Origin: Coniochaeta sp. PMI_546
Taxonomy: Eukaryota; Ascomycota; Sordariomycetes; Coniochaetales; Coniochaetaceae
Length of the DNA stretch: 64,000 nt
Assembly (NCBI GenBank): GCA_021432605.1
Contig: MU271149.1
Coordinates: 2,294,001-2,358,000 of the forward strand
Direction of reading: 5' to 3'
Part shown: piece by piece, positions 13,337 through 38,899 of the stretch
Layout of the letters: every line of letters starts with the position of its first letter
Position numbering within the stretch: the first letter of the stretch is position 1
Notes under the pieces: generated by a model
Seen by the model: the letters and a program-made list of their open reading frames with translations, nothing else
Databases searched by the model: none
Told to the model about the DNA's origin: nothing
Position numbers and translations under genes: made by a program

Positions 13337-14381
13337 TCACCACTGGTCATCATGCTTCGGCTTGATGTCGTCCTCGACCCACAAAGCGACCTTGCGCGTG
13401 GTCTGGCCGTTGCCGAGTTTATGCGCGGGGTCGTACTTGAAGACGCTCCTGCCGTTGGTGCCCGACGGAGCAAACAGCCTGGGGTCGTCGTTATTGAGCG
13501 CGACATAGGCGCAGTCCCTCCATCGGTTCAAGTCCTTGAGCGCCGGTATGATGTCGCCGACCGTGTCGCGGATCTCCTTCCACTGGGCCGGGTACCCGAC
13601 GTCGTCGGGCCCGGCCTCGTGGGAGGTCTGCGAGGGGTGGACCAGATAGGCGCGGATCGAGTCGTCGGCGACCTGCGAGGCGTCGAGCTTCGGATGGTAG
13701 GTCCCCCCGTTCCGTATGACGTCGATGACGGTGGCCTTGAACAGTTCATCGTTGGTCTGGCCGGGCGGGTCGCGCCACTCGTCGTCCGGGTCGAACGAGA
13801 CGTTCTCCCACCAGTGCGTGGCGTAGACGCCCGTGCGGCTGATGATGTACATGGTCGTGCAGCCGGACAGGCCTGTGACGCCGGTGCTGAACTGCTCGCC
13901 CGGCCCCAGGGTGGAGAACTTCTTGATGATAGCCGTGCTCATCTCTGGCGCGTGAGCCGTCTCATATTCCGGCACGATGGGTTCGGACATCAGTGGCAGC
14001 TCTCTCCGGTAGAAGGCTCCGATGCTCCTCTTGGGCAGCTCCATCCGCTTGGACAGGTCGTGGGGATCCGAGGAGACATTGCGCGAGAGCTCAATGATGT
14101 CGAACGAAGCCGGGATTTGCTGTACCCGGCTCGTTGCGCCGGTGGTCGCCAATCTGGGTCCGCATCTGTTCCGGGATCGCTTGACCAGGCGATGCAGGGC
14201 TCGTTTTTCGAGAGAGGGCAGAGGGACTGGTTTACCTGCTCACATTATTTTCCCCATTAGCATATATATAGAATCATCGGCGAGCGGAGAGGCCGGTCTT
14301 GGGGCGGGTCATCGTACACTCAAGGAGCGACTGGGCAGAACCCGCAACGCCTAGCCAGAGAAGCAGGGCACGCAATTTCAT
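13337..14381 (-). CDS. Secreted protein with CNF1-like LSGC/His deamidase signature
   Basis: Two exons, 14318-14381 and 13337-14235, with an 82-base GTACGA...GAGCAG intron; 320 residues. Residues 1-18 form a signal peptide (MKLRALLLWLGVAGSAQS). LEKR at 30-33 is a Kex2-type dibasic site, so a propeptide is likely removed. The core contains TGLSGC (Cys about 147) followed exactly 15 residues later by His about 162 in VYATHWWEN. An LSGC cysteine with a downstream histidine is the catalytic signature shared by bacterial CNF1-type glutamine deamidases, BLF1 and CheD, and the 15-residue spacing equals that of CNF1 (Cys866/His881). Around it the protein belongs to a family I know only as uncharacterised ascomycete proteins. 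Deamidase-like activity is inference from the motif; a structural relationship without activity is possible. It lies among other secreted or interaction-type genes. Confidence 0.7.
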
Positions 14382-22597: not shown

Positions 22598-24459
22598 TAA
22601 GTTAGTGCACCTATCCTCCGGACACCCCTGTCTTCCGGACACTCCAAAAATCCACACCGAAGACTTACACCACTCTATTCAACCTACTCTACCCGCACTA
22701 CTAGACCTACTACAATACAATCGCCTGCCTCACTGGGTATATCTGACTCGCTGGATTCATCTACACTATTTTCAGCCTCCCCAGCCTCCACCTGGGCCCT
22801 GTAGATGGCTTCAATATTGGCGAACTTCGAATTGGGGCTTGTTTTGACCTTCTTGCGCTTCCTACGCTTCCCAGCCTCAACCTGGGCCTCCAAGGACTTG
22901 ATCTTCTGTAGGGAGGTAGCCAATTGTATATCCTTCTCATCAATAGCTTTTTGAACCTTGTAGAATAGTTGACGTCGCGTAGTAATAGGTTGAACTCGGT
23001 GGCTTAAAACGTTCAAAGAACGCCTCAAGTCTTGCGCCTTCTTAGGAGTCGACCACACTGCTAGGGAACCTTCAAACGCGGCTTGAATTGAAGCTGCAGG
23101 ACTAGCCATTCCAGGAGTACTTGGATTGGCTGGTTCTGCAGCTGGTTTGTTAGAGTTTTCCAGTAGAAGTGGGCTGAGTAGTGGTTTAGCCATTGTCACT
23201 GGCCAAAGACCTGTCGCTTTCCACCCACTGCGTATATTCTGGCTGGTTAACCCGGCTAGGCGTGCTCTCCGATAGCAGTCAAGGAATCCACGCTTTCCAA
23301 CAGCTGTAGAATCAGTCAAATTGACTAAGGTATTGAGCTCTTTCCTATAGGCTGCCTTGAGTGACGAGAATACTGCTAAATCCAAGGGCTGTAAGACGTG
23401 GGAGGTGTGAGGAGGTAGGAAAAGTAGGCGTATATTATGCTTGAAACACAGCCACATAAACTCCGTAGTTTCGTGGCTACCGTGGCCGTCTACTATAAGG
23501 AGCCGCGGTTCTGGGGTAGCCGGTTGGGTGCCCGGGATGAAGACCCTTTCCAGCCATTCTACAGCGGTAGAATCAGTAATCCAGCCCTTTTCCGTCGCCG
23601 TAAACTGCCAGGGACCGTATGGAGCTAGGTCGAGTGGAAACCATTGCTGCTGAACTGACTGGCCTTTGAATATAACCAGTGGAGGTAGGTGCTTCCCTGT
23701 AGCCGAGATACACTCGACGAAGGAGGTCCAGGCACGTGAGCCAGGCTGTTTCCTGCGTATTGCTACCTTCTGGCGGCTCCCTAGAACCAAGCCATTGGTT
23801 CCCTGACCTTCCATTATCCCTGCCTCATCCATATTCCAGCGGTTCTCCGGCTTGACTGCCTTCATCTCTGGGATCTCGAAGAGCTTGAACCACAGCCTAA
23901 TAATATCAGTCGTAGCTCCGTTGACGCGCTTAGAATCGATAGATTTGCTCCGTTGGGTCTTAATTACCGGGTTCCTGCGTAAAAAGCCATCAATCCAGCG
24001 TTTGCCGAGTGGTGAGAGGTCTCCTTTAGTAGCTAAGATCTGGCTAACAAAGGACCTTACTTGCGCGTGGGTTGGTGGAAGGCCTAGTGCAGCCTGCGTC
24101 AATATCCACTGCGTCAAGTGGTCTTCCTGGACCTTAGAAAGGCGCTGTCGGCCAGAGAAGGCAGTAGACCAAGGTTGGGTGCCGTTGACGCGGTCATGAA
24201 GTGTAGCCCTTGGAATTCCCCAGTCGAGAGCGGCCTTCCGCAAAGACCGGCCTCTTGCGATAGCTTCAAGCGCGGAATTAACGTCATCTTCAGTATATTG
24301 CTTCATAATTGATTGATCAAACACCTAGTAAAATATCAGCTTAATTGGCCTTGTTTTGATGGAGATATTCAAGATTGAAGGTGGTGGGTGGAAAAAGCGG
24401 TGTGGATTTTTGGAGTGTCCGGAAGACAGGGGTGTCCGGAGGATAGGTGTACTAACTTA
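22598..24459 (-). mobile_element. Complete Fot1/pogo-family DNA transposon with TA duplications
   Basis: Terminal inverted repeats of about 60 bases: left 22600-22659 and right 24398-24457 match with one visible mismatch (GTGCACC versus GTACACC). Each repeat contains an internal direct duplication of TCCGGACAC. TA dinucleotides at 22598-22599 and 24458-24459 are the expected target duplication. The element is about 1.86 kb, the usual Fot1/Pot size, and contains a single uninterrupted transposase frame. Near-identical ends and an open frame point to a recent insertion. It shows no obvious RIP damage. Confidence 0.93.
22684..24303 (-). CDS. Fot1/pogo-family transposase
   Basis: 539 residues from the ATG at 24303 (MKQYTEDDVNSALEAI, the conserved family start; an in-frame ATG lies seven codons upstream). 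An N-terminal psq-type helix-turn-helix (RSLRKAALDWGIPRATLHDR) is followed by a CENP-B-type second DNA-binding domain (about 60-135). The catalytic DDE_1 domain shows WNMDEAGI, LLIVDGHGSH and HTSHVLQPLD, which carry the three acidic residues of the DDD triad. The C-terminal 120 residues are charged with a coiled-coil-like stretch and a basic RKRKKVK. It cuts and pastes its element at TA sites. All catalytic motifs are present, so it looks functional. Confidence 0.93.
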   Translation of the reverse strand, partial: KQYTEDDVNSALEAIARGRSLRKAALDWGIPRATLHDRVNGTQPWSTAFSGRQRLSKVQEDHLTQWILTQAALGLPPTHAQVRSFVSQILATKGDLSPLGKRWIDGFLRRNPVIKTQRSKSIDSKRVNGATTDIIRLWFKLFEIPEMKAVKPENRWNMDEAGIMEGQGTNGLVLGSRQKVAIRRKQPGSRAWTSFVECISATGKHLPPLVIFKGQSVQQQWFPLDLAPYGPWQFTATEKGWITDSTAVEWLERVFIPGTQPATPEPRLLIVDGHGSHETTEFMWLCFKHNIRLLFLPPHTSHVLQPLDLAVFSSLKAAYRKELNTLVNLTDSTAVGKRGFLDCYRRARLAGLTSQNIRSGWKATGLWPVTMAKPLLSPLLLENSNKPAAEPANPSTPGMASPAASIQAAFEGSLAVWSTPKKAQDLRRSLNVLSHRVQPITTRRQLFYKVQKAIDEKDIQLATSLQKIKSLEAQVEAGKRRKRKKVKTSPNSKFANIEAIYRAQVEAGEAENSVDESSESDIPSEAGDCIVVGLVVRVE

Positions 24460-35544: not shown

Positions 35545-38500
35545 ATGCTCGCCAGATGGACTCAACGCCTGAGAAGGACGCTGGGGTCTCAAAATGACCC
35601 CAGACCTGCCTCTGGTACAAACCAAGCCCGTGGCGACAACCGCACCCCCAGCACTGAAACCGCTCACCGAAATCTGGACCAGGACCAGGAGACCGAATCA
35701 GATGTGGCACGAAAATCTGCCGCCGAAGGTCACCGGCGCGAGGTCCTGCTTCGCAAGCCAGCACGGCAGCGTTGGAACGCAGCCATCAAGCCGCGATCCC
35801 AAGCATTCAAGGAGATCGTGACCATTTTCGAAGACAAGCTAGCCAGAGGTGACATGACGATCCAGAAGATCCTGGACGCGTACTTCACCAAATACGAGCG
35901 CGACCTGGTGACACCTGCCGACAAGCGCCATAACAGGGCGCTGGCCAAGATCCAAAGGCGCAACCGCGCCCGGTACAGGATGCTCATGCGGTCGCAGAGG
36001 TTCGCCCCCTGGGCCGACCAGGCTACCAGCTTCAACGTCAAGCTGGCCATGCTGTGGTTCGGCTTGCCGGTTGCGCCCTTCGAGTTCGATCTGGACGACG
36101 AGTTTAGGAGCAGTAGTGATACCGCCGACGATATCGCCGAGGCTGAGACGGAGAGGAGGCGGGAGAGAGCTGCGCAGAACGAGAACTCGTTGAGGTTCTT
36201 GAATAGTTATGGCAAGCGGCACTTTGGCAGAGACAATCTACGCGGTTGGTAGTCTTCTTTTCAACTCTTGATGTGCATCTACGAGTGAACGTGTGGCTGA
36301 GAAGGCATCCAGATCCAGACCCGACCTTTGAGGCGTACTATGCCCTCAACCACCTGTATCCAGTTGCGGCAAAGAAAAAGCGCCGTGGCGGGTATAAGCA
36401 CTACGCTTCTACCAGCCTGCGTGGCGGTGGCTTGGCCGAAGAACTGGTCGACATGGACGTCGATGACTTCAACGAGTCCGACATCGACGTCGATGAGCTA
36501 AGTGACACCAATCCCTCGGACCATGACTCGGCCGGAGAAGACGAAGAAACATCTAAGAGATCCGCAGATGTCTCGCTTCGTGGCGGTGCTACCATTTCCC
36601 AGCCATTGTTGAAGAAGGCTTTGGAGCTGAGTGGCCAGCTTTTGAGGCCAAAAGACACCCCTAAGCCCAAGCAGCCCAAGCCTGGAGTGCACTTCGACAA
36701 AACCGCGTCGCAGACGGAGAGCCCGGAAACTGGCACAGCGAAAGGAAAGGAGCCTGCTCGCGACCTCCCACCAAAACCCAACCCCTTCATAAAGCATGTC
36801 GACCCCAAACCGCAACCTCCCACTCAAGAGCAGCGCCAGCGCGACATGCGGGAGGGAACCTACAACAAGCCACCGTCGGTGCACACCGACAACAAGATCC
36901 CGCAGAACGCCCCGCCGGTCGAGAAAGTGCTCCGGTTCGGGTCCGACAACCTGCCCACGATCTCGCTGGGGGTGCTGACGCCGACCGAGCAGCGGCGGCT
37001 GCAGCTCGACCACTACCACATGCGCAACATGCTGCTCGAGCGCAGCCAGAAATGCCCCTACCGCGGCTGCGACAGGGTCATCTCCCTGGCCGAGGAGGAG
37101 CGCATGCAGCAGCACCTGGCCGAGGCGCACACGGGCGACGGGTGCAACTTCTGCGACGAGGTGCTGTACCGGCACTGGACCGTGAACCAGCGCAGGGCGC
37201 ACTTCCTCAAGAAGCACAGCGAGCTCTTCCTCAGCATGAGAGAGGTGGAGGACGACAACAGCTTCAGGGCCGGCGCCCGCCCCCACGGCCGGGTCGACTA
37301 CGACCGCGAGTCGCAGTGGACGTACTGCGCCCGCTGCGGGCGCAACCATACCGACCTCGACGCCAAGGCCGACCGCGAGCACCACGACTCTGTCTGCTAT
37401 CCCGGGGCTCCGGGAGGGGACTGGGTGGCCTGCGGGGATTGCGGCGTGATCTACTCCCGCACGGAGAGACACAAGTGCCGCGAGGTGCTCAACACGTTCG
37501 AGTGGCCGTACTGTCTCGACTGCGGTCTGGCCACGGGTCTCTTCAGCGACCTGTACCGAGGCAAGCATCAAATGTTCTGCAGGGGCATCGGCAGCGAAGA
37601 GGCAAAGTACTGCCCGTGGTGCGGGCTCATACTCACCGGGTCCCCGGGCATGAAGGTCCACCACGTCGACTACGACTGCGCCCAGCAGCCCGACGGCGCG
37701 GCGGAGGGCCCTCTCGACGAGCACGGCGAGCCCTGGCCGTTCGAGCCGCCGATCGAGGAGCAGCAGGGCGAGGAGGAGGAGCAGGAGCAGGAGCCGCCGG
37801 AGGTGTGCACGGTGTGCAAGAAGACCATCATCCACCTCGACGCCCACCTGCTGCTGAAGCACATCGAGGACAACCACGCCGGGTACACTGGGTTCTGCAT
37901 CTTCTGCAAGCTGGACTACGAGAGGCGGGGGTGGGCGGACGACCGGAAGAAGATACTGCTCCACCTGGACGACCACATCCACGGCCGCAAGGAGAAGATG
38001 GCGGCCGATCTGGTGGAGACGCTGGACCTGCCGTTCAACCACCCGTACCGGCTGCGTGCCCTCCGCCAGAGAGACTATGCTGGCGTCAAGGACTTGCGGG
38101 AGCTGGAGCATACCAAGCAGCTGTACGACAGGCTCTGGGAGTCGTCGCGGAAGCAGATGGCGGAGAGCAGCGAGGACAAGCAGCAGATCGCGTGGCTGAG
38201 GGAGGCGCTCCTCGAGGCGGAGAGGAAGCTGGCGGAGGCGGAGAAGGGTCTCGAGGGTGGAGACGGAGGTGAGGGAGCCAAGTCGACGGAAGCGGCTCCT
38301 GCAGTCCCGGCCATTCGTGTTGTCCCGGACACTCCTGCTGTTCTGGACACTCCTGCTGTTCCGGCCACTCGTGCTGCTTCGGTCACTCGTGCTGCTCCGG
38401 CCACTCGTGCTGTTCCGGCAACCCCTGCTCCTATCACTGCAGCTCCTATCACTGGGCAGAAAACAGACAAGAAAGACAAGGAGAAGGCAAAGGAAAAGGA

Positions 38501-38899
38501 CAAGGTGAAGACCACACCGGCACGCAAACAGGTTACGATGTGAGTGTCCACACCAGAGAGACCTACTTGTCTTCCTCCTCCTCCTCAACCGCATTACTCA
38601 CAAATTTGTCTCCCAGAGCCGCAGCCGCCGCGCAAACCCCGCCACCAACCGCAGAGAAGCGAAAGGCGGCAGCCCGTCCCTCGACGACGACAACATCGAC
38701 AAGGGCTGCGGCGGATCGGTCGTACCGGCCGAGCGGGGCAGGGGCGGATCGGTCTGACTCAGACGCATCCGCCGAGGAGGCGTACCGGGCGGAGGAGGCC
38801 CGGCTGAGGGCGGAAAGTAAGCGGAGGAGGACGGCCAACCGAGATCCGTCCTTCCGGCCCGGGGTTGGGGATGATGACGATGATGACGAGGAATGGTGA
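35545..38899 (+). CDS. Large multi-zinc-motif protein, uncharacterised
   Basis: Three exons, 35545-36244, 36313-38539 and 38617-38899; the spliced length is exactly 1070 codons (1069 residues). The N-terminal region (to about 235) is basic and helical (KILDAYFTKYERDLV). An acidic Ser/Asp-rich linker follows. The central half contains at least eight CxxC-based motifs: CPYRGCDRVI..H..H, CNFCDEVLYRHW..H..H, CARCGRNH..C, CGDCGVIYSRTERHKC, CLDCGLATG..C, CPWCGLILTG..C, CTVCKKTIIH..H and CIFCKLDYER..H..H. These are C2H2-like and C2HC/C4-like. A predicted coiled coil comes next, then a Pro/Ala/Thr repeat tract, a Lys-rich stretch (KKDKEKAKEKDKVK) and an acidic end. I do not recognise the family. Nucleic-acid or protein binding in the nucleus is a reasonable guess, no more. 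Confidence 0.72.
38300..38455 (+). repeat. Degenerate in-frame minisatellite in the multi-zinc gene
   Basis: About nine tandem units of 15-18 bases built on CGTGCTGYTCCGGCCACT, encoding VPATRA/APATRA-like repeats. The repeat keeps frame, so copy-number change would alter the protein length without breaking it. Confidence 0.65.

Follow-up and report, generated by a model that had tools for sequence, protein, structure and literature searches.

A conserved fungal protein family with a predicted CNF1/YfiH-like fold, export signals and an ankyrin-repeat neighbour

We analyzed a stretch of 64,000 nucleotides from the ascomycete Coniochaeta sp. PMI_546 (contig MU271149.1, positions 2,294,001 to 2,358,000; the whole stretch is called the window, and positions are counted from its first letter). 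A gene on its minus strand encodes a protein that a first-pass annotation had described as secreted and as a possible relative of the bacterial deamidase CNF1. The gene was predicted to consist of two exons:

14381-14318, minus strand: exon 1, with the ATG at 14381, encoding the probable signal peptide; predicted from splice signals and the N-termini of relatives
14317-14236, minus strand: intron of 82 bases (GTACGA...CTAAT...GAGCAG); predicted from splice signals and the likeness of exon 1 to the N-termini of relatives
14235-13337, minus strand: exon 2, encoding the pro-region and the catalytic domain, with the TGA stop at 13339-13337

The predicted intron has GT..AG ends and a branch-like CTAAT site. 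Numbering along the spliced gene reproduced from the DNA the ATG, the TGA and the residue numbers C147 and H162 that had been annotated. In the genome of the strain itself (33.5 Mb, 24 contigs), the window protein as query gave one match (E up to 0.001), as did its distant relative P0053 (E up to 1). A tblastn search of plasmids gave no match, and PADLOC found no system when run on three proteins.

Relatives and distribution of the family

Three database searches yielded 70 relatives, 41 of them in the first search, which was queried with exon 2 plus two intron-derived residues. Named relatives came from Aspergillus, Penicillium, Cadophora, Leptodontidium, Rhynchosporium, Rhexocercosporidium, Parastagonospora, Phaeosphaeria, Ampelomyces, Colletotrichum lupini and a Xylariales isolate, none of the named hits had a bacterial source, and the others were mostly metagenome proteins. 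A species look-up for four relatives placed two in the Leotiomycetes and one each in the Dothideomycetes and Sordariomycetes; Aspergillus belongs to the Eurotiomycetes. A tree was built from 36 sequences (the window protein and 35 of the 70 relatives). In it, the window protein grouped with two metagenome proteins (100/100), and this group was joined at the next level by the Xylariales and Leptodontidium proteins and another metagenome protein (98/93).

One homologous locus, L002 (NYXK01000120.1), lies on a contig titled as a Deltaproteobacteria metagenome-assembled genome in a set of species-representative genomes. Its bacterial origin was rejected and the contig taken as fungal contamination, because it has a split ankyrin frame and encodes a protein with a hydrophobic N-terminus and dibasic sites that is nearly identical to P0034 and clusters with one from Cadophora (100/100).

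The relatives in Aspergillus, Penicillium and other genera are mostly annotated as hypothetical or uncharacterized, and the precomputed Pfam annotation of the relatives is empty apart from P0042 and P0055, which have ankyrin domains. P0032 and P0066 bear the UniRef names 'Endoribonuclease L-PSP family' and 'TPM domain-containing'; these names are not borne out, as the Pfam scan of the two members showed neither domain. When the window, 31 members and 27 members were scanned against Pfam, the matches were few, weak and scattered (best E 0.041). The CNF family PF05785 was not among the four weak families matched by the 27 members at E up to 10, and for lack of this profile match the family is not filed as a CNF Pfam member. 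The CheD family PF03975 gave no profile match, and the YfiH/DUF152 Pfam family none in the strain's own genome. Among the matches listed, titles and abstract openings of the open-licence PMC literature held no description of a fungal CNF-type deamidase, and the term 'fungi' occurs nowhere in the main text of a review on CNFs (PMC8709095).

A conserved Cys-His pair on a predicted CNF1/YfiH-like fold

Residue conservation was read from two alignments. The unselected one comprised the window protein and all 41 relatives of the first search (42 rows; counts refer to rows with a residue at the position). The selected one comprised the window protein and 45 of the 70 relatives, from which three joined proteins (see below), many partial proteins and known exceptions such as P0041 had been excluded. 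The features of the catalytic domain are as follows:

13340..14044, minus strand: CNF1/YfiH-like catalytic domain; predicted local distance difference test score (pLDDT) of 94.4 from residue 135 on in the second model
13886..13888, minus strand: Ser138, nearly invariant, 9 residues N-terminal of Cys147; 41/42 unselected, 45/46 selected
13859..13861, minus strand: Cys147 in TGLSGC, candidate nucleophile; Cys in 40/41 unselected rows
13814..13816, minus strand: His162, candidate dyad partner; His in 39/40 unselected rows
13805..13807, minus strand: Glu165, nearly invariant; 39/40 unselected, 46/46 selected

The histidine follows the cysteine of TGLSGC by exactly 15 residues, as had been annotated, and the claim that CNF1 has the same spacing agrees with C866 and H881 in the excerpted text of the review (PMC8709095). 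A six-frame translation of the window contains LSGC with a His at +15 a single time. By chance this motif is expected 0.34 times per 10,000 proteins of 450 amino acids with the composition of the relatives, and 0.71 times with generic amino-acid frequencies. At such a chance expectation (0.3-0.7 per 10,000 proteins) the motif alone proves little and is only a lead; its conservation across the relatives adds weight, and a chance motif was rejected on conservation and fold together.

Cys147 and His162, whose invariance among homologues the first-pass annotation had proposed as a check, turned out to be nearly invariant. Gly146 was kept in 39/41 unselected rows and Thr148, directly after the cysteine, in 41/41, whereas the serine before the glycine varied. 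The selected alignment had Gly146, Cys147, His162 and Glu165 in all 46 rows and Thr148, like Ser138, in 45. The pattern GC[TS]x13H was present in 60 of 71 sequences, the window protein included, among which LSGCT occurred in 16 and LKGCT in 24. LSGC itself was rejected as the family signature. Since the 60 sequences were picked by this pattern, the G, C, T/S and H offsets are uninformative in them; the picking fixed neither the Ser at -9 (58/60) nor the Glu at +18 (60/60). At -6 from the cysteine the window protein has Val and 22 of the 60 have Thr. The third element that orients the histidine would be a Ser/Thr or, as in CNF1, a backbone carbonyl; Ser138 is an alternative candidate.

Eleven of the 71 sequences lacked GC[TS]x13H. 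Both Cys and His are replaced in P0041 (Cadophora gregata), P0042 has Arg in place of His, P0038 has Arg for Gly with Cys and His retained, and the Cys-His spacing is 14 in P0040. The motif segment is missing from P0018, P0030 and P0064; the remaining four (P0049, P0057, P0058 and P0059) are 117-148 amino acids long.

Structure prediction and fold comparison, the other check that had been proposed, matched the model to the CNF1/YfiH beta-sandwich fold. The CNF1/CNFy catalytic domain gave the best matches, with 11-13% identity in the structural alignment. In one list, several families of a single superfamily took ranks 1-20 and were set off by a clear gap; in the other they took ranks 1-8. The protein or peptide deamidases CNF1, NTAN1 and CheD were among the better-scoring matches. 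If the alignments are ungapped, the register given by their first residues places Cys147 on residue 866 of CNF1 and residue 94 of BLF1; the CheD row was uninformative. With a shortened model, Foldseek listed no CNF among the best 50 of 170 rows, and the absence of NTAN1 from the VIA rows of that model says nothing either way. Viral structures gave no match at E 0.001. The best of them was a Mimiviridae ChoanoV1 protein (UniProt A0A5B8IFF4; E 0.03, probability 0.80), which may be a giant-virus protein of similar fold.

Compared with known enzymes, the family is most like CNF1 and CNFy, with which it shares the fold match, the Cys-His spacing of 15, the Gly-Cys loop and, if ungapped, the register on Cys866. 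It differs from them in that sequence homology is not detectable, the fungal protein is without CNF delivery domains and apparently secreted, and nothing points to a Rho target. In CNF1 the histidine is oriented by a backbone carbonyl, and no side chain is needed (PMC7022378, as excerpted). BLF1, the bacterial eIF4A deamidase, has a Cys-His distance of 12 (94/106) and a Thr at -6 that is not conserved in the fungal family. NTAN1, the eukaryotic N-terminal Asn amidohydrolase, is intracellular and has a distance of 17, a Ser at -6 and an extra C-terminal region, according to the same excerpted source (PMC7022378). The chemoreceptor glutamine deamidase CheD is bacterial and cytosolic, with a spacing of 17. 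A profile comparison of the fungal family with a CheD set was not significant; this set consisted of 21 of 30 loci fetched and was picked by an LGSC pattern, so that its Cys is conserved by construction. YfiH, the peptidoglycan editing factor (DUF152), differs in being UDP-MurNAc-bound in solved entries, as given in their titles.

Probable export signals and the ankyrin-repeat neighbour

The N-terminal part of the protein contains the following features, numbered along the spliced protein:

14177..14182, minus strand: dibasic KR at 40-41, presumably Kex2-type; K in 25/28 and R in 24/29 aligned rows
14162..14164, minus strand: Cys46 (CGP) of the pro-region; Cys in 29/29 unselected rows covering the position
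14078..14080, minus strand: N74 in an N-x-S/T sequon of the pro-region; N in 32/33 rows
14045..14050, minus strand: dibasic KR at 84-85, followed by MELP; the mature domain may begin here; K in 26/33 and R in 30/33 rows

Exon 1 probably encodes a signal peptide, as annotated: the best 12-residue hydropathy of the N-terminus was 1.86, and among 15 chosen relatives it was 1.96-3.03 in 14 and 1.6 in one. A Kex2-type KR site had also been proposed; several KR pairs are present, and the two listed above are conserved. Behind the second, M and P were each found in 36/37 unselected rows, and the M-x-LP context recurs in the family. In 42 sequences an upstream Cys could be matched by pattern. A sequon lay between it and the catalytic Cys in 40 of them, and this conserved N-glycosylation site further supports passage through the secretory pathway. 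In the same 42 sequences, 30 had no further Cys between the two and 37 none after the catalytic one; in a few, e.g., P0044, the pattern may have selected another Cys. The window protein itself carries one more Cys, exon-2 residue 243, within its mature domain. The model has a pLDDT <50 in the stretch that includes Cys46. A lock of the catalytic cysteine by a disulfide to the pro-region cysteine, opened by cleavage and reduction, is conceivable, and we consider it rather improbable.

Directly upstream of the enzyme gene lies a second gene:

15641-14765, minus strand: ankyrin-repeat gene with two predicted exons; Pfam Ank in the second exon, none in the first

It is separated from the enzyme gene by 383 bases and has the same orientation. 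The ankyrin protein has no hydrophobic N-terminus, and the part encoded by exon 1 has one match in the strain's own genome. At L002 a homologous ankyrin gene is likewise located directly upstream in the same orientation. In the predicted proteins P0042 and P0055 an ankyrin part and the enzyme domain are joined in the order found in the window, and in P0035 in the reversed order; the ankyrin parts of L002 and the joined proteins are 36-60% identical to that of the window. We read the joined proteins as gene models merging neighbours, and real fusions are possible. Elsewhere in the window, about 8 kb from the enzyme gene, a frame of 546 codons (22687-24324) encodes a transposase with DDE_1 and HTH_Tnp_Tc5 domains. 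An open frame at 38273-38896 starts with a repeated GHSCC-type cysteine-rich unit; this frame may be repeat sequence and not encode a protein.

Interpretation of the enzyme and its neighbour

On the aligned sequences and the predicted structures, the family is genuine and conserved and forms a fungal branch of the CNF1/YfiH-like fold that is undescribed in the literature searched. The deamidase-fold assignment of the first-pass annotation was supported by predicted fold and active site; the activity we infer. The best explanation, to which we give a probability of about 0.68, is that the family represents an exported fungal Cys-His enzyme of the CNF1 fold with a putative role as a deamidase (or transglutaminase). 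Plausibly, it works like CNF enzymes without being a CNF Pfam member by sequence. The protein would be secreted and its pro-region trimmed by a Kex2-type protease, and the mature enzyme would enter another cell. There Cys147 would attack the amide of a side chain, His162 would serve as acid/base, and a Gln or Asn of a target protein would be deamidated (or transglutaminated), leaving a lasting change. The ankyrin protein would be cytosolic and neutralise the enzyme in the cytosol of the producer.

The same fold and dyad could serve another chemistry, in which an amidase or a peptidase-like hydrolase works outside the cell on amides of the cell wall or of small molecules. We regard this as unlikely, as protein and peptide deamidases are the better fold matches and the Cys-His distance is that of CNF1. 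Less likely still is a structural role of Cys147 in a disulfide with Cys46 and no catalysis. The full conservation of Cys46, the 30 sequences with no additional cysteine between the pair and the usual oxidation of free thiols in secreted proteins would fit such a role; it leaves unexplained why His162 and Glu165 are conserved like the cysteine and why Cys147 stands at the register of the CNF1 and BLF1 nucleophiles, and Cys46 is located in a poorly modelled stretch N-terminal of the conserved dibasic site, cleavage at which would remove it. That the resemblance in fold is spurious, and the family an unrelated alpha/beta fold of fungi in which an LSGC-like motif arose by chance, appears very improbable given that a single superfamily heads both lists and that the register, if ungapped, falls exactly on two known nucleophiles.

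For the ankyrin protein, the reading as a partner or immunity protein that binds the enzyme and protects the producer is tentative. A survey of bacterial polymorphic toxin systems includes ankyrin repeats among the immunity types (PMC3482391, as excerpted). We consider it somewhat more probable, with a chance a little short of even, that the neighbouring gene is unrelated to the enzyme or regulatory, and that the enzyme is a secreted effector against a host or the environment. Several points weigh against the immunity reading: just two loci with readable context (the window and L002) and three predicted joined proteins bear on it, one of the latter (P0035) has the opposite order, ankyrin proteins are generally common in fungi, and in the table of the same survey the CNF domain appears for gammaproteobacteria alone, with no immunity protein beside it (PMC3482391). 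In favor of a functional link, similar ankyrin parts recur beside or joined to the enzyme domain in Aspergillus and Rhynchosporium, and the exon-1 part is single in its own genome. The most far-reaching scenario is speculative and in our view improbable as a whole: exported CNF1-fold deamidases would occur throughout the ascomycetes as Kex2-processed, Cys-locked zymogens with an ankyrin antidote, would serve warfare between fungi or other microbes, and would be the eukaryotic equivalent of the polymorphic toxin-immunity pairs of bacteria.

CNF1-type deamidases are known as bacterial weapons, and NTAN1 is an intracellular eukaryotic cousin. If the proposed assignment is true, an exported fungal branch would mean that eukaryotes use deamidase chemistry outside the producing cell. 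It would also assign a function to a family that had no Pfam match here and whose members are mostly annotated as hypothetical or uncharacterized, and would offer a directly testable pair of enzyme and ankyrin protein in tractable moulds.
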